The notes under the pieces are model-generated. The model saw nothing but the letters and a program-made list of their open reading frames with translations, had not been told where the DNA came from and made no database searches. A stretch of 64,000 bases of DNA from Parazoarcus communis (GTDB taxonomy: Bacteria; Pseudomonadota; Gammaproteobacteria; Burkholderiales; Rhodocyclaceae), in NCBI RefSeq assembly GCF_003111645.1, contig NZ_CP022187.1, positions 2,976,001 to 3,040,000 of the forward strand, in the 5' to 3' direction. Numbering within the stretch: position 1 is the stretch's first letter; the number at the start of each line of letters is the position of its first letter. Positions 2,471-26,076 of this stretch are shown here, piece by piece. A program made the position numbers and the translations under genes.

Positions 2471-3727
2471 TCAAAGCCCCTGCTTGCCTTCGTTGCCCGC
2501 AATGAACGGGCTCCAGGGCTGGGCCCGGATCGGCGACTTCGTCTTCCACACCACGTCGAACTGACCGTCGGCGCGCACTTCACCGATGTAGACCGGCTTG
2601 TGCAGGTGATGGTTGGTCTTGTCCATGGTCAGGGTGAAGCCCGACGGTGCCTTGAAGGTCTGGCCGCCAAGCGCAGCGATCACCTTGTCGGTATCGGTGC
2701 TCTTGGCCTTCTCGACCGCCTGCTTCCACATGTAGATACCGACGTAGGTCGCTTCCATCGGGTCGTTGGTGACCACGGTGTCGGCGTTCGGCACACCGTT
2801 CTTCTTCGCCCAGGCCTTGTACTTGGAGATGAAGGAATCGTTCTCGGGGTTCTTCACCGTCATGAAGTAGTTCCAGGCGGCAAGGTGACCGACCAGCGGC
2901 TTGGTATCGACGCCGCGCAGCTCTTCTTCACCCACCGAGAACGCCACCACCGGCACGTCCGTCGCCTTCAGGCCGGCGTTGCCCAGTTCCTTGTAGAAGG
3001 GCACGTTGGAGTCGCCGTTGATGGTCGAGATGACCGCCGTCTTCTTGCCTTCGGACGCGAACTTCTTGATGTTGGCGATGATGGTCTGGTAGTCGGAATG
3101 GCCGAAGGGCGTGTAGTCCTCCATGATGTCCGACTCGGCCACGCCCTTGCTCTTGAGGAAGGCGCGCAGGATCTTGTTGGTCGTGCGCGGATACACGTAG
3201 TCGGTGCCGAGCAGCACGAAACGCTTGGCCGAGCCGCCCTCTTCGCTCATCAGGTATTCCACGGCGGGAATGGCCTGCTGGTTGGGGGCAGCACCGGTGT
3301 AGAACACGTTCTTCTCAAGCTCTTCGCCTTCGTACTGCACCGGGTAGAAGAGCAGACCATTGAGCTCCTTGAACACCGGGTTCACCGACTTGCGGCTCAC
3401 CGACGTCCAGCAGCCGAACACTGCGGCCACCTTGTCCTGCGCCACGAGCTGACGGGCCTTCTCGGCGAACAGCGGCCAGTTGGAAGCGGGGTCGACCACC
3501 ACAGGCTCGAGCATCTTGCCCATCACGCCGCCCTTGGCGTTGATCTCTTCGATCGTCATCAGCGCAACGTTCTTCAGCGCCGTCTCGGAAATGGCCATCG
3601 TGCCCGAGAGCGAGTGCAGGATGCCGACCTTGATGGTGTCGGCTGCATGTGCGCCAATCGGCGCGCCGATCGCTGCGATGGAAGCGGAAAGGGCCAGTGC
3701 CTTGATGAAGCTGCGACGAGTCTGCAT
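2471..3727 (-). CDS. urtA: Urea ABC transporter substrate-binding protein UrtA
   Basis: A 418-residue periplasmic urea-binding protein. The N-terminus TRRSFIKALALSAS is a twin-arginine signal with cleavage after AHA near residue 29. The mature start DTIKVGILHSLSGTMAISET and the later VFGCWTSVSRKSV and FYPVQYEGEE are characteristic of UrtA and FmdD-type periplasmic binding proteins (type 1 fold). It is the first gene of the visible urt cluster and feeds UrtB/UrtC. The start is supported by GGGAG six bases upstream of ATG. Urea uptake systems are usually induced by nitrogen limitation. I saw no correctly spaced sigma-54 element upstream. Confidence 0.95.
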   Translation of the reverse strand: MQTRRSFIKALALSASIAAIGAPIGAHAADTIKVGILHSLSGTMAISETALKNVALMTIEEINAKGGVMGKMLEPVVVDPASNWPLFAEKARQLVAQDKVAAVFGCWTSVSRKSVNPVFKELNGLLFYPVQYEGEELEKNVFYTGAAPNQQAIPAVEYLMSEEGGSAKRFVLLGTDYVYPRTTNKILRAFLKSKGVAESDIMEDYTPFGHSDYQTIIANIKKFASEGKKTAVISTINGDSNVPFYKELGNAGLKATDVPVVAFSVGEEELRGVDTKPLVGHLAAWNYFMTVKNPENDSFISKYKAWAKKNGVPNADTVVTNDPMEATYVGIYMWKQAVEKAKSTDTDKVIAALGGQTFKAPSGFTLTMDKTNHHLHKPVYIGEVRADGQFDVVWKTKSPIRAQPWSPFIAGNEGKQGL

Positions 3728-3777: not shown

Positions 3778-3842
3778 CAGATTAGGGATTCACCGCTGGA
3801 ACAGGAATACGCAAGATTGCGTAGGAGGGGCAGGACCGTGCC

Positions 3843-11900: not shown

Positions 11901-12866
11901 CTAGGCACCCTCGCTCGCGGCGCGGATCTTTGCCGTTGCCATCGACGCCGCGGCCGTGCGGGTTTCGACGCCGAGCTTCTCGAACACATGTTCGAGGTGC
12001 TTGTGCACCGTGCGCGGACTGGTACCGAGAATGTCGCCGATGTCGCGGTTGGTCTTGCCCCGGATCACCCAGTACAGCACCTCGGCCTCGCGCCCGGTGA
12101 GGCGGAAAGCTGCAATCAGGGCCTCGATCGCGCTGGCGTCGTTCTCTTCGCGCAACACCACCAGCCACTCTTCGTCGCCGGTCTGATCGTGGAACGAGGC
12201 CAGCAGGCGACGGGCCCCCTCACTCGCCACCAGGCCGGGCACCTCGCGACGCTCGCGACGCGCGAGTTCGGCAGCCATGATCCAGTCGAGCAGGCGCGGC
12301 GGTGCAATCTCGCTCGGTTCGCTGCGCTCGGGCTCGAACCAGCTTCGGATCAGCTGGCGCGCCAGCGGCGTCTGCCATACCAGCTTGCCATCACTCGCCC
12401 TGACCGCGACCGTTGCCTGGCCGAAGGCGTCAAGGGCGCTGCGGGCCTGCTTCATCTGACGCGCGTTCTGTACATGGGCCGCAATGCGGGCGAGCACCTC
12501 GGCGGGCTTGATCGGCTTGGTCACATAGTCGGCACCACCGGCGGCAAACGCCGCAACCACATGCTCGGTTTCCGTGAGCCCGGTCATGAAGATGAGCGGG
12601 ATCGCGCGGGTCGCAAAATCGGCCTTGAGTCGCCGTGCGACCTCGAAGCCGTCCATGCCGGGCATCAGCGCATCGAGCAGCACGACATCGGGCAGGCTCT
12701 GGCGCGCGCGCGCAATCGCGCTCTCGCCGTTGGTGGCGACCAGTACCAGATAGCCGGCTTCGTCGAGCGCATCGTGCAGCAGCGCGAGGTTCTCGGGCAC
12801 GTCGTCGACGATCAGCACGATGCCTGCAGCAGCGGGGTCGGCAGCACTCAGGGCAGATGGGCTCAT
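11901..12866 (-). CDS. LuxR-type response regulator coupled to the transporter-kinase gene
   Basis: A 321-residue regulator. Residues about 16-130 form a receiver domain (VLIVDDVPENL; phospho-acceptor Asp in VVLLDALMPGMDG; Lys in YVTKPIKPAE). A middle section (about 150-255) has no recognised domain. The C-terminal LuxR/FixJ helix-turn-helix (about 258-312) contains LTGREAEVLYWVIRGKTNRDIGDIL and SPRTVHKHLEHVFEKLGV. Its ATG overlaps the stop of the transporter-kinase gene in an ATGA, so translation is probably coupled and the pair is a cognate two-component system. Targets are unknown. The in-frame ATG at 12890 lies inside the kinase gene and is less likely. Confidence 0.9.
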   Translation of the reverse strand: MSPSALSAADPAAAGIVLIVDDVPENLALLHDALDEAGYLVLVATNGESAIARARQSLPDVVLLDALMPGMDGFEVARRLKADFATRAIPLIFMTGLTETEHVVAAFAAGGADYVTKPIKPAEVLARIAAHVQNARQMKQARSALDAFGQATVAVRASDGKLVWQTPLARQLIRSWFEPERSEPSEIAPPRLLDWIMAAELARRERREVPGLVASEGARRLLASFHDQTGDEEWLVVLREENDASAIEALIAAFRLTGREAEVLYWVIRGKTNRDIGDILGTSPRTVHKHLEHVFEKLGVETRTAAASMATAKIRAASEGA

Positions 12867-15800
12867 GATTCCGGCAAGTCCTTGCGACACAGTATTTCGC
12901 GCATGGCGTCGAACTGGAACTGACGCGCGAGTTCGCGCTGCACCCGCACGAACTCGGCATACTCGGGTGCCATGCGTTCGATGTCAGCCAGTCGGGCAAG
13001 GATACCGCGCAGGAAGCCCAGTTCGATCAACTCGTCGAGCGCCCGCAGCTCGGCGGATGGGGGCAATACCAGTTGTTCCACCTCGACCGTGGGCACGCGT
13101 TCCGCAGCCGCGGCCGGGGCATCTGCCCACACCCATTCGAGCTGCAGACGGCGACCGATCCAGTCGAGCAGTTCCTCCACCCGGATGGGCTTGAGGATGA
13201 AGTCCTCCGCGCCGATCCCGACATCGTGGTCCAGCCCCTTGTCGAAGGCATTGGCCGAGATGATCGCCACCGGCGCCTCGTCGAGCCCGGCTGCACGCAG
13301 ACGCCGGATGGTTTCCCAGCCGTCGATGCCGGGCATCGCCAGATCCATGAAAACAAGGTGGGGGCGGAAATGCGGTACCAGTTCGAGGCAATCAAGGCCG
13401 GACTCGGCCTGACCCACCTCGAAGCCGAGTGGTTCGAGCAGATTCGCCAGCAGCTCGCGGTCGACACGCTCGTTATCTACCGTGAGAATGCGCCGCCGCA
13501 CACCTTTGTAGCCAATGCGCTGAACGCGCGGCAGCACCTCCGCCACCTGCGCGTCGTGGAGTTGCGGCAGAAAGAGACGGACGCGAAACACGCTGCCGGC
13601 GCCAGGCTGGCTGTCAACGGTGAGCTCGCCCCCCATCAGGTCGGTGAGCATCTTGCTGATCGTCAGCCCCAGCCCGGTGCCCGTTGTCGTGCTGCCGCGG
13701 GCGCTGCTGCCACGGGCGAAGGGCTCGAAGACATGCGCGATCTCGTCTGCAGCAATGCCGGGGCCACTGTCTTCAACCTCGAACAAGGCCATCTCACGAC
13801 GGTAGGTCAGGCGCACGCGAACCGTGCCGCGCGCGGTGAATTTCACTGCATTGCCGATGATGTTGATCAGGATCTGGCGCAGACGCTTTTCGTCGGCGCG
13901 CACGAACTCCGGCAGCGTGCCAACGATCTCGAAGTGGAAGCCGAGCCCCTTGTTGCGCGCCTGCAACTCGAACATGGCCACCAGCTGGCGCACGAACTCG
14001 GCGAAGGCCAGCGGCCGCATCTCGAGCGCAAACTTTCCGCCCTCGATGCGTGCAATGTCCAGCGTGCCCTCGATCAGCGACAGCAGGTGCTCGCCGCTCC
14101 TGCGGATCACGCTCACCGCCTGCCGCCGCTGGGGCGGGATGGCCTCGTCGCCGTCGAGAATCTGCGCATAGCCGAGGATGCTGTTGAGCGGCGTGCGCAA
14201 TTCGTGGCTGATCGAGGTGACATAGCGACTCTTGGCCTGATTGGCCTGCTCCGCCACGCGACGCGCGTTCTGCAGCTGCTCGTCGGTGCGGCGGTGGGAT
14301 TCGATTTCTTCCATCAGCAAGCGGGTCTGACGGTTCGATTCCTCCTGCGCCACCTGCCGGCTCTTGTGCGTCAGCACCATCCACCACGCCGCAATACCGC
14401 CCATCAGGAACAGGGCCGCAAACGCCTTCAGCAGTACGCCCTTCAGATCGCCCCGTAGCATCTCGCCCGGATAGCCGGCGGCCAGGTCGACGCTACGCGC
14501 GATCAACTCATGGTAGTAGAGCGTGCCGAGCAGCAGAGCGAGAAAGGACGTGACTCCGATCATCAGCAACAGGTAGTGACCGAGCCCGGCATCGAGATAG
14601 GGCAGCAAGGATTTCGGCAGCAGTTTCTGCAACAGCTCCGACCACTGCACTGACAGGCGTGCATGGGGTTTGCACTGATCTTCGCAGCGCGCATCGAGCG
14701 AACAGCACAGCGAGCAGATCGTGCCCTGATAGGCCGGGCAATGGCTGGTGTCCTCGGGCTCGAAGTGCTGCCCGCAGATGCAGCACTGGCGGGTCGCCAC
14801 CCGGGTCTTGCCACTGGTCACCGGCTCGGGCGTCCGCGCAAGGTAGTAGCGTCCCTTGGTCAGCCACGCGATCAGCGGCGAGGAGAACAAGGCGACAACC
14901 AGCGCCACGAAGGGCGCATAGGGCTGAAGCGCCGGGCCGAACAGGCCGATGAAGGTACTTACCGACAGCGCCGAGGCGATCAGCAGCGCCCCGACGCCGA
15001 CCGGATTGATGTCGTACAGGTGGCTGCGCTTGAATTCGATGCCCGGTGGCGACAGGCCGAGCGGCTTGTTGATCACCAGATCCGCCACGACAGCGACCAT
15101 CCATGAAATCGCGATGTTGGAATACAGACCGAGCACCTGCCCGAGCGCCTGAAAAACGTTCATCTCCATCAGCAGCAGGGCGATCAGGATATTGAACACC
15201 ACCCAGACGACGCGCCCGGGGTGGCTGTGGGTCAGCCGCGAGAAGAAGTTCGACCAAGCCAGCGAGCCGGCATAGGCGTTGGTGACATTGATCTTGAGCT
15301 GCGAGACGATGACAAACAACGCTGTCACCACCACGGCCCACAGGCTGCTGTCGAACACCGCCGAAAAACCGAGCAGGTACATCTGATTGGGATCGACCGC
15401 CTTGTCCGGCGCCATGCCGTTGCGCAGCAGCATCCACGCCAGCAGGGCACCGCCCAGCATCTTGACCACCCCGATCAGCACCCAGCCCGGCCCGCCCAGC
15501 ACCACGCCAAACAGCCAGCGCCAGCGATTCTGCTGGGTACGTGCCGGCATGAAACGCAGATAGTCGGCCTGCTCGCCCATCTGGGTAATGAGCGCGATAC
15601 CGACGGTCATGGCGCCGGCGAAGAGGTGCAGATCAAACTCACCACCCTTGCCATCGACGCCGGGGTATTGCCACAGCCCTGCGAGTGCAGCGGGGTCCTC
15701 GCGCAAAACGAAGAAGAAAGGCAGCGCCAAAAGGAAAAGCCAGATCGGCTGGGTCAAGGTCTGCAGCTTGCTGATCACGGTCACGCCATGGGTGACCAGC

Positions 15801-16348
15801 GGTATCACCACCAGCGCGCAGATCAGGTAGCCCCAGCTTGGCGGGATGCCGAGTGCCATCTCGAGCGCGTAGGCCATGATCGCGGCTTCGAGTGCGAACA
15901 GGATGAAGGTGAAGGAGGCATAGACCAGCGACGTGATGGTCGAGCCGATGTAGCCAAAACCTGAGCCACGTGTCAGCAGATCCATATCAACGCCGTAGCG
16001 CGCGGCATACAAGCTGATCGGCAAACCGGTGAGAAAGATGATGAGGCCGATCGCGAGGATGGCCCAGAAGCTGTTGATGAAACCATAGCTGACCAGCATG
16101 GTCGCGCCGACCGCTTCGAGCACCAGAAAGGACGCCGCGCCAAACGCGGTGTTGCCGACCCGGAACTCGGACCACTTGCGGAAGCTGCGCGGGGTGAAGC
16201 GCAGCGCGTAGTCCTCGAGCGTTTCGTTGGCGACCCAGGTGTTGTAGTCGCGCCGGATCTTTACCACCCGCTGTGGCGCAGCGCCGTGCCGGTCCGCCTG
16301 CGCGTCAGCGTCAGGAAGGCGGTCGGAAGGGGAGTCGGCAGCGTTCAT
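12863..16348 (-). CDS. NCS1-type transporter fused to hybrid histidine kinase with cysteine cluster
   Basis: A 1161-residue inner-membrane sensor. Residues ~50-500 are a twelve-helix permease of the NCS1 (purine/cytosine/allantoin) type. Residues 522-559 hold nine Cys (522, 523, 525, 537, 545, 548, 549, 555, 559), looking like a metal or redox site. Two helices (~588-612 and 640-660) and a coiled linker follow. HisKA has H715 in SHELRTPLNS; HATPase has N833, EDSGPGI and GTGLGL. A receiver domain has D1002 in FMDLAMPG. The last ~80 residues are unassigned. The layout resembles CbrA-like transporter-kinase sensors but with NCS1 instead of SLC5. It is expected to sense a nucleobase-like compound and signal through the overlapping LuxR-type regulator. 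No ribosome site is visible at this start. Confidence 0.9.
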   Translation of the reverse strand: MNAADSPSDRLPDADAQADRHGAAPQRVVKIRRDYNTWVANETLEDYALRFTPRSFRKWSEFRVGNTAFGAASFLVLEAVGATMLVSYGFINSFWAILAIGLIIFLTGLPISLYAARYGVDMDLLTRGSGFGYIGSTITSLVYASFTFILFALEAAIMAYALEMALGIPPSWGYLICALVVIPLVTHGVTVISKLQTLTQPIWLFLLALPFFFVLREDPAALAGLWQYPGVDGKGGEFDLHLFAGAMTVGIALITQMGEQADYLRFMPARTQQNRWRWLFGVVLGGPGWVLIGVVKMLGGALLAWMLLRNGMAPDKAVDPNQMYLLGFSAVFDSSLWAVVVTALFVIVSQLKINVTNAYAGSLAWSNFFSRLTHSHPGRVVWVVFNILIALLLMEMNVFQALGQVLGLYSNIAISWMVAVVADLVINKPLGLSPPGIEFKRSHLYDINPVGVGALLIASALSVSTFIGLFGPALQPYAPFVALVVALFSSPLIAWLTKGRYYLARTPEPVTSGKTRVATRQCCICGQHFEPEDTSHCPAYQGTICSLCCSLDARCEDQCKPHARLSVQWSELLQKLLPKSLLPYLDAGLGHYLLLMIGVTSFLALLLGTLYYHELIARSVDLAAGYPGEMLRGDLKGVLLKAFAALFLMGGIAAWWMVLTHKSRQVAQEESNRQTRLLMEEIESHRRTDEQLQNARRVAEQANQAKSRYVTSISHELRTPLNSILGYAQILDGDEAIPPQRRQAVSVIRRSGEHLLSLIEGTLDIARIEGGKFALEMRPLAFAEFVRQLVAMFELQARNKGLGFHFEIVGTLPEFVRADEKRLRQILINIIGNAVKFTARGTVRVRLTYRREMALFEVEDSGPGIAADEIAHVFEPFARGSSARGSTTTGTGLGLTISKMLTDLMGGELTVDSQPGAGSVFRVRLFLPQLHDAQVAEVLPRVQRIGYKGVRRRILTVDNERVDRELLANLLEPLGFEVGQAESGLDCLELVPHFRPHLVFMDLAMPGIDGWETIRRLRAAGLDEAPVAIISANAFDKGLDHDVGIGAEDFILKPIRVEELLDWIGRRLQLEWVWADAPAAAAERVPTVEVEQLVLPPSAELRALDELIELGFLRGILARLADIERMAPEYAEFVRVQRELARQFQFDAMREILCRKDLPES

Positions 16349-16449: not shown

Positions 16450-17892
16450 TTACTTTGCGGCGCCCAATTCCTTCAGGGTCTTTGCCAGCAGCGCGGCCTT
16501 GTCGATCTGCAGCGCGGCCGGCGCATCGGGCGGGCACAGAGTGGCGGGGTCGATACCGTCGCGGTCCTGTCCTGCATCGACCGCGCTTGGCAAGTCCTCG
16601 CGTGCCACGTCGAGCGCGCGCATCAGGTGCCCCATCCCCGACAGGGTGCGGGCTTCGGCGGTCAGACCGTCGTAGCGTGCGTTGGTATAGGCACGGCGGG
16701 CCTGAAAATACTCGTTTTCGGTATCGAGCAGATCAAGCAGGGTGCGCTGACCGATGTCGAACTGGCGACGGTAGGCCTCGCGCGCTTTCTCGATCGACAG
16801 TTGATGCTGATCGAGATAACGCAACTGCTCCTGGATTCGCTGTACGTCGTTGTAGGCAATCGCCACCGTTTGCCGCAGATCGCGACACGCCTTGTCGCGC
16901 AGATCCTTGGCCTGGTTCAGCGATTCGGCAGCCTGCCGAATGCGGGCGTCATCCGAACCGCCGCGAAAAAGGTTATAGGTCAGCACCAGTTCCACCACAC
17001 CGTCGCGCGAACGCCCGTCAAGGTTGTCGAGGTTGCGGTCGACCGCCTGGCTGGCGCGCAGGTCCACCCGCGGGTGGTAGGCCGCACGGCGGGTTTCGAT
17101 CGCAGCCTGGCCTGCACGCACATTCTCGACTGCGGCATTGAGCGAAGGGCTGGTGTTGAAGGCTTCACGCAAGGCATCACTGGCACTCGGCGGAATACCC
17201 TCAACGCCGAGTTTGTCGCCCATCGGTGGCAGAGCGTCGGCCGGCAATTCGCCCACCACGCGCTGATAGCGGCTGCTGACATCGTGCAGGTTGGACACTT
17301 CGGTCAGCAGGTTGGACTCGGCCAGCGCCAGACGCCCGGTCGCCTGCTCAAGATCCACCCGGCGGCCGACACCGGCCCCGGCGCGCTCTGCGATCTGGTC
17401 GTACACCAGCTTGTGTTCGACATAGTTCTGCTTCGCGAGCGCAACCAGGTCGCGATAGCGCTGCACGTCGGCATAAGCGCGTACCGCCTCGAGCGCAGCC
17501 GACTCGGAGGCGTCGATGATTTCGTAGTATCGGGCCAGACGGGCATAGCCGAGGCGGGATACCTCGCTGCGGGTATAGAAGCCGTCGTACACCATCTGGT
17601 TGAGCGACAGCGTGGCATTGCTATGCGTGTAGTGATCCGTCGAACTGCCCGGGCGCTTCTGGCTTTCACGGCCAATGCTGGTCGTCACATCAACCTGCGG
17701 CAGGTAGCCACCCCGCGCGGCATCCTGGTCGGCGCCGGCTGCACGGAATGCGTGCCAGCGTGCCTGCACCTCGGGGTTGCTCACAACGGCCTTGCGCGCA
17801 GCGTCACGCAGCAACTCTGGGGCCGACGCAGCGGCAACAACAGGCAGACTCGCCAAGACCGCTAGTGAGACCAAGGTACGAATTCGTTTCAT
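16450..17892 (-). CDS. lapE: TolC-family outer-membrane pore of the adhesin type I secretion system
   Basis: A 480-residue outer-membrane efflux protein with a signal peptide (MKRIRTLVSLAVLASLPVVAAA) and two tandem OEP repeats rich in heptad coiled-coil pattern, typical of TolC. Typical stretches include YLPQVDVTTSIGRE, LSLNQMVYDGFY and LLDTENEYFQARRAY. It differs from the RND-pump lipoprotein at 53.9 kb because it has no lipobox Cys. Lying beside lapG and lapD, it is the likely exit duct for LapA with LapB and LapC. The start at 17892 has GGAG five bases upstream. It ends at the strong terminator at 16353-16390. Confidence 0.88.
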   Translation of the reverse strand: MKRIRTLVSLAVLASLPVVAAASAPELLRDAARKAVVSNPEVQARWHAFRAAGADQDAARGGYLPQVDVTTSIGRESQKRPGSSTDHYTHSNATLSLNQMVYDGFYTRSEVSRLGYARLARYYEIIDASESAALEAVRAYADVQRYRDLVALAKQNYVEHKLVYDQIAERAGAGVGRRVDLEQATGRLALAESNLLTEVSNLHDVSSRYQRVVGELPADALPPMGDKLGVEGIPPSASDALREAFNTSPSLNAAVENVRAGQAAIETRRAAYHPRVDLRASQAVDRNLDNLDGRSRDGVVELVLTYNLFRGGSDDARIRQAAESLNQAKDLRDKACRDLRQTVAIAYNDVQRIQEQLRYLDQHQLSIEKAREAYRRQFDIGQRTLLDLLDTENEYFQARRAYTNARYDGLTAEARTLSGMGHLMRALDVAREDLPSAVDAGQDRDGIDPATLCPPDAPAALQIDKAALLAKTLKELGAAK

Positions 17893-18164
17893 GGAAACTC
17901 CAACACTTCTGAATAGTGAATGAGCAGCATTGAGTGCTGCCCAACTTGAGCAGGAAGAATCATAACCGCCTTGGCGCACCGCACAATGCGAACAATTCAA
18001 CGACCGCGCGAAGAATCCACGCTGTAAGCACCAGCCAGAAAGCATTCAGCACATTAGCATGGGCATCACTCAACCCCCACAAAAGTCACCCTGCGCCAGT
18101 CACAAGAGCAGCACAAGACGCTTCGATTCCGGATAATGCAGGCACAAGCACTCCCAGAGCCCCG

Positions 18165-18875
18165 ATGCCCCTGTCCGACCGACCGCCGTTTTCAGCCCGC
18201 CTGCCCCTGGGTAGATGCTGGCGCGCGGGACAACGGACCGTGCTCATGCTCGGACTCGCGATCGGTCTGTGCGCAGCGGCGCCAGACCTCGACCGCATGC
18301 AGACGCTTGCCGTGGCCCGCTATGGCCAACCGGCCGGCGAAGCGGTCGTCGCATGGCGCCGGATGATCAGCGAAGCCCGCGATCTCGACGAGGCGGGCAA
18401 GCTCGCCAGAGTGAACACCTTTTTCAACCGCCGTATCCGCTTCGTGGACGACATCATCGTCTGGAAGCAATCCGACTACTGGGCCACGCCGCTGGAAACA
18501 CTCGGCCGCGACGCAGGCGACTGCGAGGATTTCTCGATCGCGAAGTACATGAGTCTGCGCCTGCTCGAGGTTCCTGCCGACAAGTTACGGCTTGTGTACG
18601 TGCGCGCCCGCATCGGCGCCGCCGACAGCACCATCACCCAGGCGCACATGGTGCTCAGCTATTTCGAAACACCCAATGCCGAGCCGCTGGTGCTGGACAA
18701 CCTGATTGGCGAGATCCGCCCGGCCGGCCGACGCCCCGACCTGTTTCCGGTTTTCAGCTTCAACAATGAAGGCCTGTGGGTGGGCGGCGGCACCACCTCC
18801 GCCGCCGACCCCACCACCCGCCTGTCACGCTGGCGCGACGTGCTCGAACGCATGCGCAGCGAAGGACTGCAATGA
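18165..18875 (+). CDS. lapG: Periplasmic transglutaminase-like cysteine protease LapG
   Basis: A 236-residue protease of the bacterial transglutaminase-like cysteine proteinase family. The N-terminal hydrophobic stretch (about 25-39) is a signal or anchor. The catalytic triad is visible as C120 (GDCEDFSIAK), H161 (TQAHMVLSYF) and D178 (LVLDNLIGEI). LapG cuts the adhesin LapA after its retention module when c-di-GMP is low and LapD lets it go. The start at 18165 is the best signal-peptide-yielding ATG, although its ribosome site is weak; the frame is open further upstream. It is followed 34 bases later by lapD. Confidence 0.92.
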   Translation: MPLSDRPPFSARLPLGRCWRAGQRTVLMLGLAIGLCAAAPDLDRMQTLAVARYGQPAGEAVVAWRRMISEARDLDEAGKLARVNTFFNRRIRFVDDIIVWKQSDYWATPLETLGRDAGDCEDFSIAKYMSLRLLEVPADKLRLVYVRARIGAADSTITQAHMVLSYFETPNAEPLVLDNLIGEIRPAGRRPDLFPVFSFNNEGLWVGGGTTSAADPTTRLSRWRDVLERMRSEGLQ

Positions 18876-18909
18876 ACCCGTACCCGAAATTTCCCGGAGC
18901 ACCCCGTCC

Positions 18910-20823
18910 ATGTCCCTGATCAAGCAACTCTGGATCGCCATCGTCATGGTCACCCTGCTATCCCTTGGCGGCAGCCTGGTGGTGAGCACGCTGGCGGCAA
19001 AGCGCTACCTCGAACAGCAACTCAACGTGAAAAACGTCGACAACGCCACTGCGCTCGCACTGTCACTGTCGCAGATGCCGAAGGATCCGGTCACCGTCGA
19101 ACTGCAGGTTGCCGCGCAGTTCGATGCCGGACACTACCGCGTGATTCGCCTGGTCGGACCCGACGGCAACATCCTGGTTGAACGCACTGCCGAGCCCCGT
19201 CTCGACGACGTCCCAGCCTGGTTCGTGCGCCTCGCCGCGATCGAGGCCCACCCCGGTGTGGCGCACGTGCAGGACGGCTGGCAGCAGTTCGCCACCCTGA
19301 CGCTGGAAAGCCAGACCAGCTACGCCTACACCGAGCTGTGGCACAGCATTCGGCAGATGCTGTTGTGGTTCGCCATCATGGCGTCCGCAGCCGGCGTCGT
19401 TGGCAGTCTGCTGTTGGGCCGCATCACGGCCCCCCTCCGCAAGCTGGTTGGGCAGGCCGAGGCCATCGGTGAGCGCCGCTTCGTCACCACGCCCGAGCCC
19501 GCCACCGCCGAACTGCGCGTCGTGGTGCGCGCGATGAACGCATTGTCCGAACGCGTGCGCCTGATGCTGGTGGACGAAGCCCGACGCCTTGAAACCCTGC
19601 GCAAGCAAACACAGGAAGATGCCTTGACCGGCCTGTTCGAGCGCCGCCAGTTTCTCAACGTGCTCGGTGCGCAACTGGTCGACCACGATGCACCGACGGG
19701 CGGCGCACTGCTGATCGCACGGGTCGGCGAGCTGTCCGAACTCAACCGCACCCGGGGCAGGGAGTTCGCAGATGCCCTGCTGCGAGCGCTGGCAGATGCC
19801 ATCCGCAAGCAGATCGGGGAGCAGCCGACATGGGTCGCGGGCCGTCTGAACGGAAGCGACCTTGCGATCCTCGCCCCGGGTGTTGCCTATCTTCCGCTAT
19901 GGGCCGAGAGCCTGGTCAAGGCTTTGCACGACGTAGCGGACAAGCACGTCACCGGCGGTGACAGCGCGGGCATCGCCCTGCCCATCGCCGCGGCCCTGTA
20001 CTCCCCCGGCGAAGCACTGCCAACGGTGCTGACCCGCACCGATACGGCGCTGGCCGAAGCCGAACTGGCCGGCGGGCGGGCGGTTCAGCTCGACGCCTGG
20101 GTGCGCCTCACGCAGCCTCAGCGCGACCAGTCGCAATGGCATCAGCTCATTTCCAGAGCGCTCGATCAGCATGAACTGCGCCTTGAAACCTATCCTGTGC
20201 GGGATGGCAATGGCGCACTGGTGCACGTCGAGGCACCGCTGCGCTTGCGGCTTGATGGCGAGTGGCGTGGCGTCGCCTACTTCATGCCATGGGCGGTGCG
20301 CCTCGATCTGATGGGGAAGATCGATGCCGCCGTCGTGAAGGCTGCGCTGGAACTCATTCGCAACACCGGTCAGGCCGTCGCGGTCAACATTTCGTCCCAG
20401 GCCATCCGCAGCGCCGGCTTTCTGGCCGATCTGCTGCATCAACTGGAGATGGCACCTAACGAAGCACCACTGCTGTGGATGGAAGTTCCGGAGCAGGAGG
20501 CTGCGCGCAATCAGGCCGAGTTCCGCACCTTCTGCCTCGCGCTCAAACCCCTGGCGTGCAAGCTCGGCCTGGAGCATGCCGGCCCGAACTTCAACGCACT
20601 TGGCGACCTGCACGACCTCGGGCTCGACTACCTCAAGGTCGACGCTTCACTGCTTCGCGACCTGAACGGCAACAGCGGCAACCAGGCCTTCGCGCGCAGT
20701 CTGTGCATGCTGGCGCACGCTCTGGGCCTGAGCGTGATCGCAGAAGGCGTGGATCACCCTGAAGCCGTCACGATGCTGAGCGATGTGGGCTTTGATGCCA
20801 TGACCGGCCCCGGCATCCGCTGA
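18910..20823 (+). CDS. lapD: c-di-GMP receptor LapD (degenerate GGDEF-EAL)
   Basis: A 637-residue inner-membrane receptor. Helix 1 (about 8-28), the periplasmic LapG-binding domain (about 30-150, with the conserved surface Trp in DGWQQFATLTLESQTSYAY), helix 2 (about 150-170), HAMP (~170-225), GGDEF-like (~235-390) and EAL-like (~400-637) domains appear in order. GGDEF is replaced by RGREF near 283-287 and EAL by EAP near 441-443, so neither cyclase nor phosphodiesterase activity is expected; the EAL-like domain should bind c-di-GMP. This degeneracy is the LapD hallmark. It works with LapG from the same transcript. Confidence 0.93.
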   Translation: MSLIKQLWIAIVMVTLLSLGGSLVVSTLAAKRYLEQQLNVKNVDNATALALSLSQMPKDPVTVELQVAAQFDAGHYRVIRLVGPDGNILVERTAEPRLDDVPAWFVRLAAIEAHPGVAHVQDGWQQFATLTLESQTSYAYTELWHSIRQMLLWFAIMASAAGVVGSLLLGRITAPLRKLVGQAEAIGERRFVTTPEPATAELRVVVRAMNALSERVRLMLVDEARRLETLRKQTQEDALTGLFERRQFLNVLGAQLVDHDAPTGGALLIARVGELSELNRTRGREFADALLRALADAIRKQIGEQPTWVAGRLNGSDLAILAPGVAYLPLWAESLVKALHDVADKHVTGGDSAGIALPIAAALYSPGEALPTVLTRTDTALAEAELAGGRAVQLDAWVRLTQPQRDQSQWHQLISRALDQHELRLETYPVRDGNGALVHVEAPLRLRLDGEWRGVAYFMPWAVRLDLMGKIDAAVVKAALELIRNTGQAVAVNISSQAIRSAGFLADLLHQLEMAPNEAPLLWMEVPEQEAARNQAEFRTFCLALKPLACKLGLEHAGPNFNALGDLHDLGLDYLKVDASLLRDLNGNSGNQAFARSLCMLAHALGLSVIAEGVDHPEAVTMLSDVGFDAMTGPGIR

Positions 20824-20827
20824 GAAC

Positions 20828-20863
20828 GGAAAAAGGGGGGCGAGCCCAAAGGCCCGTCCCCCT
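20828..20863 (-). terminator. Intrinsic terminator at the end of the lapA transcript
   Basis: Read on the minus strand, GGGGGACGGGCC-ttt-GGGCTCGCCCCCC folds into a GC-rich stem with one mismatch, followed by TTTTTCC. It lies directly downstream of the 109-residue gene and between it and the convergent lapD. Confidence 0.8.
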
Positions 20864-20869
20864 GCGGGT

Positions 20870-21199
20870 TCAGATCAAGCCACCATCGTCCCCGCTGCCC
20901 AGCAGATTCAGTCCGCTGCGCATCGAGGCACGCAGGGACTTGCGCTCCATGAGCTTCGCCTGCGCCTGTTCGGGCAAGTCGGTGAAGCGGATGACATCAC
21001 GCTCGATCAACAGATCGACGATATCTTCCAGCACCCGGACCAGCCTGAGGTCGGATGCCGTCAGAGTCGCATCGCTCGCCTCCCCCTGCCCGAAAGCCAG
21101 CAGCTCCGGCTCGCCATCCTCAACCCACTCGCTGATCGCGCCCTCAGCCTCAAGGCTGGCAGCCACGATGCGCCCCGCTTCATCACGCCTTACGAACAC
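20870..21199 (-). CDS. Small acidic protein of unknown function, downstream of lapA
   Basis: A 109-residue, mostly helical acidic protein (MFVRRDEAGRIVAASLEAEG at the N-terminus). The mid-section LRLVRVLEDIVDLLIERDVI is a long amphipathic helix, followed by RFTDLPEQAQAKLMERKSLR. No signal peptide, helix-turn-helix or enzymatic motif is seen. It starts 30 bases after the lapA stop and ends at the operon terminator, so it is likely co-transcribed with the adhesin gene. Related proteins carry uninformative names in databases as I recall; I assign no function. Confidence 0.75.
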   Translation of the reverse strand: MFVRRDEAGRIVAASLEAEGAISEWVEDGEPELLAFGQGEASDATLTASDLRLVRVLEDIVDLLIERDVIRFTDLPEQAQAKLMERKSLRASMRSGLNLLGSGDDGGLI

Positions 21200-21229
21200 G
21201 CATCCATCCTCCGGAAAAAGGCCGCTGCA

Positions 21230-24200
21230 TCATTTGTCGATCAGAAGCTGATTATTGGAGATGAGCTGATTAATGATGTCATGACTGCTCAGCGCACTGT
21301 CGAAGGTCACATTCTCCAGCACGATGGTCTGATCCTCCGCACCCGCCGAGTACCCTCCCGCAAAACCGCCACTGCTGCTGACATGCAGCACGGTATTGCC
21401 AGAAACCTGCTCGACACTCAGGAAGTTGTCGATCGTTGCACTGCTTTCGTCCTTGAGCAGATCGGCCAGATCCAGACGGTCGGCGTTGCCGGTACCGTTA
21501 TAGATGCCGACGGTAAAGTCACCAACGGTGTCCACCGCCGGGTTCCCTGCCGTGCCGCCATCGTTGAGCTTCCAGACGAAGGTGTCAGCGCCCAATCCGC
21601 CGAACAGGCTATCGTCGTCACCCCCACCGTGAATGCTATCCGCCGCGACCGAACCATGTACTTCATTCGGGGCGTTGTCCATGTCACTGAATACGGCACC
21701 AGTCTGAATCACCCAACTACCGTCGCTTGCCTGCACAAGCTCCCCACCTGGAGGAACAACCAAGTCAGAAGAGAACAAGGCGTAATCATTCTCACCGAGC
21801 GGCTGATAGGTACTGTCCGCGGTACCTGTGAGTTTGAATTCAATCCGGAAAGTCGCATGCCCACCCTGATCCCAATAGAGGACCTCGATCGGCAGAAGAC
21901 CACCATCAATATTGACACCGCTGAATGTCGTGACCTTGGTGGATGTAATTCCGTTGTATTCCGCAATTGAAGTGCCGTTCAACAACACGTCGTAGCCATC
22001 ATCCGCGGTAATCCTGATGTCGTAGGTGCCCTGCTCGATCAAGAGTTGTCCGGTCAGTCGTATGATCGAGTCTGTCGTTTTTCCGACCCCGCTTACGGCA
22101 ACGATGTCTTGGGCATTCCCGGCGTTGGCGCCAGTCAGAAAGCGATAGAGGTTACTCCCGTTATTGGTAATAGCCCCACCTGCTTCAATCTTGGCATTCC
22201 TGCCCAGGTCGTTGGAAAAGAGCGGCGAATTGGTATTCTCAGTAAGACCGAACTCAATGGAATTTGCCTTGAAACTTGCATCCGGAGCTGCTCGTCCGGC
22301 AATAATCTGTTGAACTTTCGCAATCGTGGTCAGATTGCCTACCGTTCCGTCATTGGTGTGCACGCGGGTAACGCCGGAGAAGCCGTCACTTGCACTCGTC
22401 GAGTTATCGTTATAGCCGTAGTACTCGCCAGACAATCCCTGCATGGCTACCGGCACCCCCGTCGTTGTGGCCTCAAGATGGGTCACAATCAGAGAGTCAG
22501 GCGTCACGGAGATCGCAGCAATGGCCGGAGTAGGGTCTTCCAAGCCGTCGCTATCGACCGAGGCGTAGGTGAAGTTCGTCTCGCCGTTCCAGTTCGCAGC
22601 CGGCACGAAGGTGACCGTGGCACCGTTGGCGGTGGCCGGGATCTCGGTGCCCACGGCGACCGGGTTGCCGTTGAGCAGCAGCGTGCCGTTGAGCGGCAGC
22701 GTCTTGATCACGAAGTGATCCACCGTGCCGTCAACGTCGCTACCCGACAGGCTGACCGGGATCGAGGCTGCGTCTTCTGCGCCGCTCGCACTGGTCGCGG
22801 CGGTGTCCGGGGCGTCGTTGACCGGGCTCACCGTCACCGTGGCGGTGGCCGGGGTGCCGTCTTCCAGACCAAGGTCATCGACCGAGGCGTAGGTGAAGTT
22901 CGTCTCGCCATTCCAGTTCGCGCTCGGCACGAAGGTGACCGTGGCGCCGTTGCCGGTGGCCGGGATCTCGGTGCCCACGGCGACCGGGTTGCCGTTGAGC
23001 AGCAGCGTGCCGTTGAGCGGCAGGGTCTTGATCACGAAGTGATCGACTGTGCCGTCCGGATCCGAGCCCGACAGGCTGACCGGAATCGCAGCGGCATCCT
23101 CTTCACCGCTGGCGCTGGTCGCAGCGGTTTCCGGTGCATCGTTGACCGCACTTACGGTCACGGTGGCCGTGGCGGGAGTGCCGTCTTCCAGACCAAGGTC
23201 ATCGACCGAGGCGTAGGTGAAGTTCGTCTCGCCGTTCCAGTTCGCAGCCGGCACGAAGGTGACCGTGGCGCCGTTGGCGGTGGCCGGGATCTCGGTGCCC
23301 ACGGCAACCGGGTTGCCGTTGAGCAGCAGCGTGCCGTTGAGCGGCAAGGTCTTGATCACGAAGTGATCGACTGTGCCGTCCGGATCCGAGCCCGACAGCC
23401 TGACCGGAATCGCAGCGGCATCCTCTGCGCCGCTCGCGCTGGTCGCGGCGGTGTCCGGGGCGTCGTTGACCGGGCTCACCGTCACCGTGGCGGTGGCCGG
23501 GGTGCCGTCTTCCAGACCAAGGTCATCGACCGAGGCGTAGGTGAAGTTCGTCTCGCCATTCCAGTTCGCGCTCGGCACGAAGGTGACCGTGGCGCCGTTG
23601 CCGGTGGCCGGGATCTCGGTGCCCACGGCGACCGGGTTGCCGTTGAGCAGCAGCGTGCCGTTGAGCGGCAGGGTCTTGATCACGAAGTGATCGACTGTGC
23701 CGTCCGGATCCGAGCCCGACAGGCTGACCGGAATCGCAGCGGCATCCTCTGCGCCGCTCGCGCTGGTCGCGGCGGTGTCCGGGGCGTCGTTGACCGGGCT
23801 CACCGTCACCGTGGCGGTGGCCGGGGTGCCGTCTTCCAGACCAAGGTCATCGACCGAGGCGTAGGTGAAGTTCGTCTCGCCGTTCCAGTTCGCAGCCGGC
23901 ACGAAGGTGACCGTGGCACCGTTGGCGGTGGCCGGGATCTCGGTGCCCACGGCGACCGGGTTGCCGTTGAGCAGCAGCGTGCCGTTGAGCGGCAGCGTCT
24001 TGATCACGAAGTGATCCACCGTGCCGTCAACGTCGCTACCCGACAGGCTGACCGGGATCGAGGCTGCGTCTTCTGCGCCGCTCGCACTGGTCGCGGCGGT
24101 GTCCGGGGCGTCGTTGACCGGGCTCACCGTCACCGTGGCGGTGGCCGGGGTGCCGTCTTCCAGACCAAGGTCATCGACCGAGGCGTAGGTGAAGTTCGTC

Positions 24201-25960
24201 TCGCCATTCCAGTTCGCGCTCGGCACGAAGGTGACCGTGGCGCCGTTGCCGGTGGCCGGGATCTCGGTGCCCACGGCGACCGGGTTGCCGTTGAGCAGCA
24301 GCGTGCCGTTGAGCGGCAGGGTCTTGATCACGAAGTGATCGACTGTGCCGTCCGGATCCGAGCCCGACAGGCTGACCGGAATCGCAGCGGCATCCTCTTC
24401 ACCGCTGGCGCTGGTCGCAGCGGTTTCCGGTGCATCGTTGACCGCACTTACGGTCACGGTGGCCGTGGCGGGAGTGCCGTCTTCCAGACCAAGGTCATCG
24501 ACCGAGGCGTAGGTGAAGTTCGTCTCGCCGTTCCAGTTCGCAGCCGGCACGAAGGTGACCGTGGCGCCGTTGGCGGTGGCCGGGATCTCGGTGCCCACGG
24601 CAACCGGGTTGCCGTTGAGCAGCAGCGTGCCGTTGAGCGGCAAGGTCTTGATCACGAAGTGATCGACTGTGCCGTCCGGATCCGAGCCCGACAGCCTGAC
24701 CGGAATCGCAGCGGCATCCTCTGCGCCGCTCGCGCTGGTCGCGGCGGTGTCCGGGGCGTCGTTGACCGGGCTCACCGTCACCGTGGCGGTGGCCGGGGTG
24801 CCGTCTTCCAGACCAAGGTCATCGACCGAGGCGTAGGTGAAGTTCGTCTCGCCATTCCAGTTCGCGCTCGGCACGAAGGTGACCGTGGCGCCGTTGCCGG
24901 TGGCCGGGATCTCGGTGCCCACGGCGACCGGGTTGCCGTTGAGCAGCAGCGTGCCGTTGAGCGGCAGGGTCTTGATCACGAAGTGATCGACTGTGCCGTC
25001 CGGATCCGAGCCCGACAGGCTGACCGGAATCGCAGCGGCATCCTCTGCGCCGCTCGCGCTGGTCGCGGCGGTGTCCGGGGCGTCGTTGACCGGGCTCACC
25101 GTCACCGTGGCGGTGGCCGGGGTGCCGTCTTCCAGACCAAGGTCATCGACCGAGGCGTAGGTGAAGTTCGTCTCGCCGTTCCAGTTCGCAGCCGGCACGA
25201 AGGTGACCGTGGCACCGTTGGCGGTGGCTGGGATCTCGGTGCCCACGGCGACCGGGTTGCCGTTGAGCAGCAGCGTGCCGTTGAGCGGCAGCGTCTTGAT
25301 CACGAAGTGATCCACCGTGCCGTCGGCGTCGCTACCCGACAGGCTGACCGGGATCGAGGCTGCGTCTTCTTCACCCGTTGCGGCCACAGCGTTGGTCTCA
25401 GGTGCGTCATTGACCGGCGTCACCGTAACCGGCGTTTCAGTTTCCCCCGTCGTGGTGACGGTTTGTGCTTCGTCGGCCCCGTCTCCTGCAGCCCGCAGTT
25501 CCGGCACAACGGCTGCGGCGGATCCCTCGAATTCGAACTCGATCGGATCGACACCCTCGGTAATCCGCAGCAGGCGCACGAAATCATTGCCGTCACCGCC
25601 ACCGCCTCCGGTCAGGCCGGCGGCCGGTTCTTCGAGCACGTCGTCGAGATTGGCGCCGTCGTTGAGGGCCTGGATGACTTGCTGGATGGTGCCGTCGGCC
25701 AGTTGCGCTTCGTTGGCCTGCGGACGGGTGGCCTCGGAAAGGTCGGCTGAGATCAGGACGGCCTGGTCTTCACCGACCGGAACGATGCTGCCGTCGGCAA
25801 CCACCAAGAGTTCGGCGCGAGCACCGGCTGCGGTCACGAGGGTCTCGCCTTCGAGCAGGGCGTCGCCAACCTTGAGCAGGCGGAGATTGCCCGCTTGGTC
25901 CCTGGCCTCTGCCTTGCCGGTGATACTGACGACGGTTGCGACTGCCTTTGCGCTTGCCAT
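21230..25960 (-). CDS. lapA: LapA-type repeat adhesin with retention module and type I secretion signal
   Basis: A 1576-residue surface adhesin. Residues 1-~115 are the retention module (MASAKAVATVVSITGKAEAR, then VGDALLEGETLVT), which jams in the TolC pore. PAAG at 112-115 is the probable LapG cut site, followed by a Gly-rich hinge. Residues 183-1154 are nine near-identical 108-residue cadherin/Ig-like repeats starting VNDAP. Residues ~1175-1400 look like a PA14 (carbohydrate-binding) domain, with YDIRITADDGYDVLLNG. The C-terminus (~1440-1576) has GGDDDSLFGGLGADTFVWK, a calcium-binding RTX-like motif, and a type I secretion signal. It is small for the family. The start has AGGAG nearby. Confidence 0.93.
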   Translation of the reverse strand: MASAKAVATVVSITGKAEARDQAGNLRLLKVGDALLEGETLVTAAGARAELLVVADGSIVPVGEDQAVLISADLSEATRPQANEAQLADGTIQQVIQALNDGANLDDVLEEPAAGLTGGGGGDGNDFVRLLRITEGVDPIEFEFEGSAAAVVPELRAAGDGADEAQTVTTTGETETPVTVTPVNDAPETNAVAATGEEDAASIPVSLSGSDADGTVDHFVIKTLPLNGTLLLNGNPVAVGTEIPATANGATVTFVPAANWNGETNFTYASVDDLGLEDGTPATATVTVSPVNDAPDTAATSASGAEDAAAIPVSLSGSDPDGTVDHFVIKTLPLNGTLLLNGNPVAVGTEIPATGNGATVTFVPSANWNGETNFTYASVDDLGLEDGTPATATVTVSPVNDAPDTAATSASGAEDAAAIPVRLSGSDPDGTVDHFVIKTLPLNGTLLLNGNPVAVGTEIPATANGATVTFVPAANWNGETNFTYASVDDLGLEDGTPATATVTVSAVNDAPETAATSASGEEDAAAIPVSLSGSDPDGTVDHFVIKTLPLNGTLLLNGNPVAVGTEIPATGNGATVTFVPSANWNGETNFTYASVDDLGLEDGTPATATVTVSPVNDAPDTAATSASGAEDAASIPVSLSGSDVDGTVDHFVIKTLPLNGTLLLNGNPVAVGTEIPATANGATVTFVPAANWNGETNFTYASVDDLGLEDGTPATATVTVSPVNDAPDTAATSASGAEDAAAIPVSLSGSDPDGTVDHFVIKTLPLNGTLLLNGNPVAVGTEIPATGNGATVTFVPSANWNGETNFTYASVDDLGLEDGTPATATVTVSPVNDAPDTAATSASGAEDAAAIPVRLSGSDPDGTVDHFVIKTLPLNGTLLLNGNPVAVGTEIPATANGATVTFVPAANWNGETNFTYASVDDLGLEDGTPATATVTVSAVNDAPETAATSASGEEDAAAIPVSLSGSDPDGTVDHFVIKTLPLNGTLLLNGNPVAVGTEIPATGNGATVTFVPSANWNGETNFTYASVDDLGLEDGTPATATVTVSPVNDAPDTAATSASGAEDAASIPVSLSGSDVDGTVDHFVIKTLPLNGTLLLNGNPVAVGTEIPATANGATVTFVPAANWNGETNFTYASVDSDGLEDPTPAIAAISVTPDSLIVTHLEATTTGVPVAMQGLSGEYYGYNDNSTSASDGFSGVTRVHTNDGTVGNLTTIAKVQQIIAGRAAPDASFKANSIEFGLTENTNSPLFSNDLGRNAKIEAGGAITNNGSNLYRFLTGANAGNAQDIVAVSGVGKTTDSIIRLTGQLLIEQGTYDIRITADDGYDVLLNGTSIAEYNGITSTKVTTFSGVNIDGGLLPIEVLYWDQGGHATFRIEFKLTGTADSTYQPLGENDYALFSSDLVVPPGGELVQASDGSWVIQTGAVFSDMDNAPNEVHGSVAADSIHGGGDDDSLFGGLGADTFVWKLNDGGTAGNPAVDTVGDFTVGIYNGTGNADRLDLADLLKDESSATIDNFLSVEQVSGNTVLHVSSSGGFAGGYSAGAEDQTIVLENVTFDSALSSHDIINQLISNNQLLIDK
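22499..25414 (-). repeat. Nine tandem 324-bp repeats within lapA
   Basis: Nine in-frame units of 108 codons run from VNDAP to VTVSP. Unit 1 is 25091-25414. Units 2-5 (23795-25090) and 6-9 (22499-23794) are the same four-unit block twice: each variant residue (IPVR, AVNDAPE, SDVDG) recurs in the same order, giving a 1296-bp higher-order repeat that looks identical by eye apart from the 3' end of unit 9. Confidence 0.93.
25616..25627 (-). other. Predicted LapG cleavage site in LapA (PAAG)
   Basis: Codons 112-115 of lapA encode P-A-A-G, just after the retention module and just before a Gly-rich hinge. LapG-type proteases cut between the two alanines of a [T/P/A]AAG motif placed about 70-150 residues from the N-terminus of LapA. 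A second literal match, TAAG at codons 43-46, falls inside the folded module and is less likely. Confidence 0.7.
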
Positions 25961-26076
25961 GTTCTGCTCTCCTGATCTGCTGCCCCGTGCGCCAGAGCAG
26001 CGCATCGGGAAACGGGTTCGATGGCAGACACCTTATCGGGCTGCGTTCCCCGCCTCTATTGGACCAGTGGACAAGC

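Follow-up and report, generated by a model that had tools for sequence, protein, structure and literature searches.

A 64,000-nt stretch of Parazoarcus communis DNA (contig NZ_CP022187.1, positions 2,976,001-3,040,000 of the forward strand, hereafter the window; host genome of 4.57 Mb) encodes, at 12863-16348 on the minus strand, a 1161-residue hybrid histidine kinase that carries an NCS1 permease at its N-terminus. We propose that this protein and the LuxR-type response regulator encoded by the next gene probably form a 'transceptor' system that senses urea or a close amide and induces the urea importer operon urtABCDE. To our knowledge, the manner in which bacteria detect urea before its uptake is poorly described, and urea sensing becomes directly testable with this protein, the regulator that partners it, and the operator and target operon predicted here.

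The open reading frame (ORF) has no internal stops. ORF analysis, Pfam, profile-profile comparison and structure prediction place along it, all on the minus strand, an NCS1 permease domain (residues 38-494, 14867-16237; hhalign alignment and Foldseek), a cysteine module (residues 522-559, 14672-14785; family alignments and model), a predicted two-helix membrane hairpin (residues 579-661, 14366-14614; hydropathy and model) and three domains recognized by Pfam: HisKA (residues 705-771, 14036-14236), with the phospho-acceptor H715 in SISHELRTPLN, HATPase_c (residues 819-927, 13568-13894) and a receiver domain (residues 954-1062, 13163-13489), with D1002 in MDLAMPG. The HisKA histidine, the HATPase_c domain and the receiver aspartate that characterize a hybrid histidine kinase are all present in this one protein. 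An initial annotation, made from the sequence alone, had described a single protein with permease, cysteines, HisKA/HATPase (H715) and receiver (D1002), and this order is confirmed here; the two membrane helices between the cysteines and the kinase had been missed, and the adjoining REC-LuxR response regulator (11901-12890, minus strand; Pfam), whose predicted start overlaps the kinase gene by up to 28 nt, had been overlooked together with urtA, urtB and the start of urtC. Hydropathy analysis gave 21 raw peaks before residue 680, which were merged by eye into 12 within residues 60-500 and two more at 592-610 and 642-660, and the AlphaFold2 model shows two long helices, 579-622 and 628-661, between the cysteine module and the kinase. 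Since the membrane crossings are even in number, the cysteine module and the kinase should both be cytoplasmic.

The initial annotation had considered that the fusion could reflect an assembly error. This is not the case, since the same fusion recurs in other genomes. Of 300 genomes of the order, 53 have a match to residues 1-660 at E <=0.001, as do 19/369 genomes of a class sample and 58/398 of a phylum sample; the samples overlap in part, and a small number of the matches represent fragments or distantly related free-standing permeases. A scan of GTDB gave at least 590 stretches that encode a relative, and the kinase is also present in all of the 80 loci kept for analysis. The host genome itself contains a second copy, 53% identical to the first (C1:3450351-3453623).

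Single-sequence searches did not reveal the family of the permease. PF02133 (NCS1) has no match in the window protein itself, no transporter family was found in the full protein by Pfam or among the best 25 of 139 NCBIfam matches, nor in residues 1-660 by Pfam, and neither phmmer nor a PDB profile search identified one for the permease. Profile-profile comparison with hhalign aligned the permease family (125 members, residues up to 510) to 30 PF02133-locus proteins over 434 columns (Prob 99.5, E 2e-22), as opposed to Prob 0.3 and E 0.19 for a control set of 25 SLC5 (SSF) proteins; the NCS1 set was built by automatic ORF choice, which took the wrong ORF for L253 at least. The standalone relative L184 passes PF02133 with 31.8 bits (cut-off 23.5) and is one of four above the cut-off, with L126, L211 and L149, among 12 relatives scanned; two more score below it (L127, L212) and six have no match (L124, L125, L153, L128, L206, L210). 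The AlphaFold2 model of residues 1-662 (pLDDT, the predicted local distance difference test, 91.7; predicted template modelling score, pTM, 0.91) has Mhp1 and CodB as its top five Foldseek matches in the PDB (E 2.3e-9 to 6.5e-7), with other LeuT-fold families close behind (Nramp, 9e-7; SGLT2, 1.3e-6). Thus, the profile-profile match, the PF02133 match of L184 and the predicted fold place the permease inside NCS1, as had been claimed, with a predicted 12-transmembrane (TM) LeuT-type fold closest to Mhp1 and CodB.

Although it resembles Mhp1 (hydantoin) and CodB (cytosine) in fold and profile, the window permease differs from them in its fusion to a kinase, in its C-terminal cysteine module and in TM3, where the W-Y-G-F-Q of a classical NCS1 protein aligns with L150-F-A-L-E154. 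E154, at the position of the NCS1 Gln, is invariant (125/125 members, and 229/229 rows with a letter there in a wider set), the position of the Trp is Leu or Phe150 in the family, and Trp is absent from residues 227-275, the segment with TM6. In Mhp1, W117, Q121 and W220 have roles towards the ligand. The substrate of the window permease probably differs from the nucleobases or related ring compounds that classical NCS1 proteins transport together with a cation.

The segment that follows the permease carries nine cysteines at residues 522-559, all of which had been counted as a linker in the initial annotation. Eight (C522, C525, C537, C545, C548, C549, C555 and C559) are invariant in 121/121 homologues, and the ninth, C523, is variable (Cys in 27 of the 121). 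In a wider set of 231 sequences, all eight are held by 207/207 fusions, comprising 205 labelled kinase fusions and the diverged L143 and L152 (the same proteins as L179 and L180, ~1130 aa), which had been labelled 'NCS1alone' automatically with a low kinase score and are counted here as fusions. The other 24 rows include seven standalone permeases with all eight cysteines, eight rows that hold only C522, C525, C545 and C548 (five in urease operons, two close relatives and L128), eight fragments without the region and one distant permease (L211) without the module. C537, C549, C555 and C559 are present or absent together throughout this set; since they come and go as one group, the alignment suggests two interleaved four-cysteine sites, forming a binuclear zinc module as in cross-braced zinc folds. 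We had also considered the module as a kinase-specific part, an idea that was dropped because standalone permeases carry it too.

In the full model, residues 521-560 form a short hairpin and a helix with pLDDT >90; modelled alone, the module is less sure (pLDDT 76, pTM 0.52). Foldseek on the module alone gave no significant match (best E 0.24), and the best 50 of 274 matches are mostly RING, FYVE, PHD and similar zinc domains, none of them significant. A profile search of the PDB found 21 sequences of zinc-finger or cysteine-rich type, the best with E 0.0013 over a short stretch. The conserved cluster probably binds metal, and zinc is the metal that we favour. Of the possible metal or redox cluster envisaged earlier, metal binding is kept, while redox tuning is unsupported because the module occurs in kinase-free permeases and its weak structural matches are mostly zinc folds.

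Genes for urea and amides recur beside the fusion. In the window, urtA (substrate-binding protein of the urea ATP-binding cassette (ABC) importer; 2471-3727; TIGR03407, 588 bits, cut-off 492.75), urtB (permease of the importer; 669-2288; TIGR03409, 405 bits, cut-off 250.3) and the start of urtC (1-506, cut by the window edge; recognized with a urtC profile built from family loci) are all encoded on the minus strand, as is the regulator, 8 kb beyond it. The host genome's single ureC match lies ~18.2 kb beyond the window start on the same strand, with ureABC-EFG outside the window, and the host's paralogous kinase is divergent from urtABCDE and a formamidase gene.

Neighbours were counted in 82 loci (the 80 GTDB loci, the window and the host paralogue) using a codon-usage score, which replaced longest-ORF gene calling misled by shadow ORFs. 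The regulator cluster is present in 74 loci, in 72 of them at the next position; ureA occurs in 36 loci, ureB in 35, ureC in 35 and urtA in 19. With stricter thresholds, urt or ure genes were found in 45 of the 80 GTDB loci. We also chose by hand 60 stretches of up to 20 kb from the order, class and phylum lists; 57 of these contain the fusion (55 labelled, plus L179 and L180), and urt, ure or fmdA lie near 46 of the 57. The chance of encountering urt or ure in a random 20-kb stretch of the host is ~2%, as estimated from one ureC and two urtA in 4.57 Mb. Representatives of UrtA, UrtB, UrtC, UrtD and the urease alpha and gamma subunits exceed their NCBIfam cut-offs, the one for UrtE, a fragment at the edge of a contig, falls short, and FmdA was confirmed by Pfam in two loci; other cluster sequences are presumably UreB, UreE, UreF and UreG.

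A candidate operator links the kinase to urtA. The dyad TACGT-N6-ACGTA occurs in 17 of 38 kinase-urtA or kinase-permease regions, compared to 3-5 for the best dyad of shuffled controls, and sites before urtA of other loci define the degenerate inverted repeat TACGYM-N4-KRCGTA. This repeat identifies a predicted regulator site in the window, TACGCAATCTTGCGTA (3808-3823, read on the minus strand), located 81-96 nt before the urtA start codon. The site itself was not used in deriving the repeat, the host's own paralogous locus (L123) being in the discovery set; the strict form TACGTC-N4-GACGTA does not detect it, whereas the degenerate form does. In the whole host genome the degenerate repeat occurs at two places, each before a urtA, namely the window site and one beside the paralogous kinase, while the same pattern read backwards, taken as a control, occurs at nine. 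Within the order, 41 kinase-positive genomes provided 48 regions upstream of urtA, of which 13 contain the repeat, as opposed to none of 62 such regions from 56 kinase-negative genomes (Fisher p 7e-6); six control palindromes gave 0/660 in tests at the same position. The positives include genomes in which kinase and urtA are 1.65 Mb (G228) or 0.1 Mb (G072) apart. The repeat occurs at 44 places in 2.63 Mb of loci, preceding urtA in 27 cases, a kinase in 8, fmdA in 3 and a standalone permease in 1; the other 5 are located elsewhere. Initial candidates for the motif, for example ACCCA-N4-TTGTA, were discarded because they read as DYNSWV codons of the kinase, and sigma-54 sites were not above chance (10 versus 7.5 expected).

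Permeases of the family also occur without a kinase. In six genomes of two genera (G582, G1119, G1120; G1042, G1045, G1047), a kinase-free family permease is divergent from the kinase and adjoins formamidase, and the fetched stretch lacks urt genes. Five loci of one genus (L184, L325, L326, L331, L332) have a standalone permease co-directional with ureABC-EFG. Such standalone permeases in urease or formamidase loci are flagged here as candidate transporters of urea or of amides such as formamide. A 72-row tree, which left out L228_7550 (24% filled) and L329_7806 (long branch), contains one branch (Shimodaira-Hasegawa-like approximate likelihood ratio test, SH-aLRT, 98) that parts 68 kinase fusions from 4 standalone permeases, the root not being inferred; since a single branch divides the two groups, a single fusion event is possible. 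On this tree, urease-only (9 rows) and formamidase-only (31 rows) labels require 4 changes, as compared to a mean of 8.3 and a minimum of 5 in 200 label shuffles, and the 17-row set to which the window belongs comprises rows labelled ure and urt, unlabelled loci and one ure+fmd locus, without any fmd-only row. We lean, by a little more than an even chance, towards a new class of bacterial membrane proteins for urea and short amides, in which NCS1 permeases with a C-terminal zinc-type module would exist either as standalone transporters in urease and formamidase loci or, by a fusion of likely single origin, as transceptor kinases that perceive that solute and govern its uptake.

Several observations weigh against a sensor of urea that controls urtABCDE. 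The kinase-regulator pair lies ~8 kb from urtA with other genes in between. In 35/80 GTDB loci the fetched stretch showed neither urt nor ure genes; many of these loci lie on short contigs, and most of the near Azoarcus relatives belong to this group. Near 11/57 fusions of the wider sample, which include the diverged L179, L180, L215 and L216, urt, ure and fmdA are all missing. The repeat is absent before urtA in 35/48 kinase-positive regions, before 6/15 GTDB urtA genes and before 24/38 in the wider sample, and it precedes 0/129 regulator genes and 0/47 ureA genes, with which the idea of a urease promoter failed. The Fisher test of the repeat against kinase presence is uncorrected for relatedness. 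If two mismatches are permitted, 9 matches occur in the window versus 12.5 expected, so that it is the place of the site, and not the number of sites, that is telling.

The importer operon as predicted target would also suit a kinase that responds to the overall nitrogen state or to flux through the ABC importer, and not to urea itself, with the NCS1 domain as a platform for partner binding, and CbrA is described, in the passages drawn on here, as having a part in carbon/nitrogen balance. The transporter part is, however, more conserved than the kinase core (mean 0.80 versus 0.73), and in the six genomes of two genera mentioned above the standalone permease beside formamidase takes the place of the ABC importer; we regard this explanation as unlikely. 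A redox or Fe-S sensor in the cysteine module, which would set kinase activity and leave the permease a secondary role, could account for the invariance of the eight cysteines in 121/121 homologues and in 207/207 fusions of the wider set. It is hard to reconcile with the kinase-free permeases that hold the module (seven with eight cysteines, eight with four), with weak sequence and fold matches that are mostly zinc folds (none significant by fold) and with a spacing that differs from the CxxCxxC of common Fe-S motifs, and it appears quite improbable.

The initial annotation had suggested a purine, pyrimidine or hydantoin as ligand. That the sensor reads a nucleobase, hydantoin or another classical NCS1 substrate would be in keeping with its membership in NCS1 by profile-profile and fold comparison, and distant free-standing homologues (L124-L126, 25-28% identity) have neighbours that we take to be hydantoinase- or oxoprolinase-like. 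The neighbours that recur beside the fusions are nonetheless urease, urtABCDE and formamidase, the predicted operator sits at urtA, and the Trp and Gln of TM3 are replaced. Such a ligand is thus unsupported, and in our estimate very unlikely.

The sensing of urea or a close amide by a transceptor kinase is the simplest account of the present facts and of the precedent of CrbS/CrbR, RpuS/RpuR and CbrA. At the cytoplasmic membrane, the NCS1 domain would bind urea or a closely related small amide, and the conformational change of the transport cycle would pass through the cytoplasmic zinc-type cysteine module and the two-helix hairpin to the dimerization and histidine phosphotransfer (DHp)/HATPase kinase. 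Phosphate would then pass first to the receiver within the kinase and from there to the adjoining REC-LuxR regulator, which would bind TACGYM-N4-KRCGTA before urtA and activate the high-affinity urea ABC importer. Those paralogues that adjoin formamidase, among them the second host copy, probably read formamide or another short amide; a specialization of urea and formamide type would fit the presence in the host of two paralogues and of two urtA operons, both preceded by the repeat and one accompanied by formamidase.

The likeness to CbrA-type transporter-kinases noted in the initial annotation is supported, as SLC5 kinases share the transporter-kinase layout. In the sections of the literature used here, CbrA, CrbS and RpuS (SLC5/STAC proteins of Pseudomonas, Vibrio and Sinorhizobium) are, as in the window, membrane transporters fused to a kinase, and CrbS and RpuS are hybrids with a receiver like the window kinase. 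The same sections describe CrbS/CrbR and RpuS/RpuR as governing utilization or transporter genes via conserved promoter motifs, CrbR being a LuxR-type regulator that acts on an inverted repeat at such genes (PMC5715377, PMC9100948). In contrast to these kinases, the window protein has an NCS1 and not an SLC5 permease, an eight-cysteine module and, in the model, a two-helix hairpin where they have a four-helix STAC bundle, and a family linked to urea and amide genes. Pfam scans of the window protein gave no STAC match, no comparison with a dedicated STAC profile having been made. An ammonium transporter-histidine kinase fusion of Kuenenia, as presented in part of its description (PMC5764959), likewise serves a nitrogen source but differs in transporter fold and ligand.

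Related genes had been seen before. Table 4 of PMC2907700 gives a 1131-aa histidine kinase and a 308-aa receiver protein adjoining UrtA in Dechloromonas aromatica RCB, and a section of PMC13296017 reports a urtABCDE operon with LuxR-family two-component genes, as well as fmdA, in Ectopseudomonas guguanensis G3; unlike the account given here for the window family, these passages mention no transporter domain, ligand or operator. No paper on an NCS1-kinase fusion or on such a urea regulator was found in the literature searched, which was open-access with subscription papers mostly outside it. The window protein thus belongs to a known kind, the transporter-fused sensor kinase, and is new in its transporter family, its linker and, likely, its ligand. 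NCS1 thereby joins SLC5 and Amt among the transporter families that have been recruited as sensors for histidine kinases.

Some family members depart from the common arrangement. In L206 (8265-10922) and L210 (8306-10990), the transporter, cysteines and hairpin are fused to a non-hybrid HisKA-HATPase kinase adjoining formamidase, and the L206 locus also encodes AmiS/UreI, a zinc-ribbon FmdB-like protein and a REC-HATPase protein. In L329, the gene after a standalone eight-cysteine permease (from 7806 onward) belongs to the Amidase family (PF01425), and the stretch contains none of urt, ure and fmdA. The diverged fusion of L216 (9039-13160) perhaps senses a nicotinamide-like compound, since it is flanked by genes for NadA (PF02445) and a CTP_transf/NUDIX protein. 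Another diverged fusion (L215, from 9038 onward) has no urea genes in its stretch, and its neighbours are presumably those of a multicomponent phenol hydroxylase.

The module is also carried on plasmids. Plasmid pBVIE02 (L447) is annotated with nitrilase, FmdB, formamidase, five ABC genes, a divergent kinase and a LuxR regulator, and this complete formamide-type module is flanked by transposase genes, as expected of a mobile unit. In PLSDB, relatives of residues 1-660 were found in 530 plasmid records, of which 342 are Klebsiella by the first word of the name, with ~47% identity among the matches listed. One K. pneumoniae lineage is described as having acquired a urea ABC transporter together with formamidase (PMC13060141), and the sensor may belong to that cluster.

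Close to the kinase, window positions 16450-26005 encode a TolC-type protein and a 1591-aa LapA-type adhesin with a type I secretion signal, and two further genes there presumably encode LapG- and LapD-like proteins; TolC and two opposite genes are found near the kinase in 8-9 of the 82 loci. A small protein encoded at 7314-7868 matches the CigR family below the cut-off and RcnB just above it.

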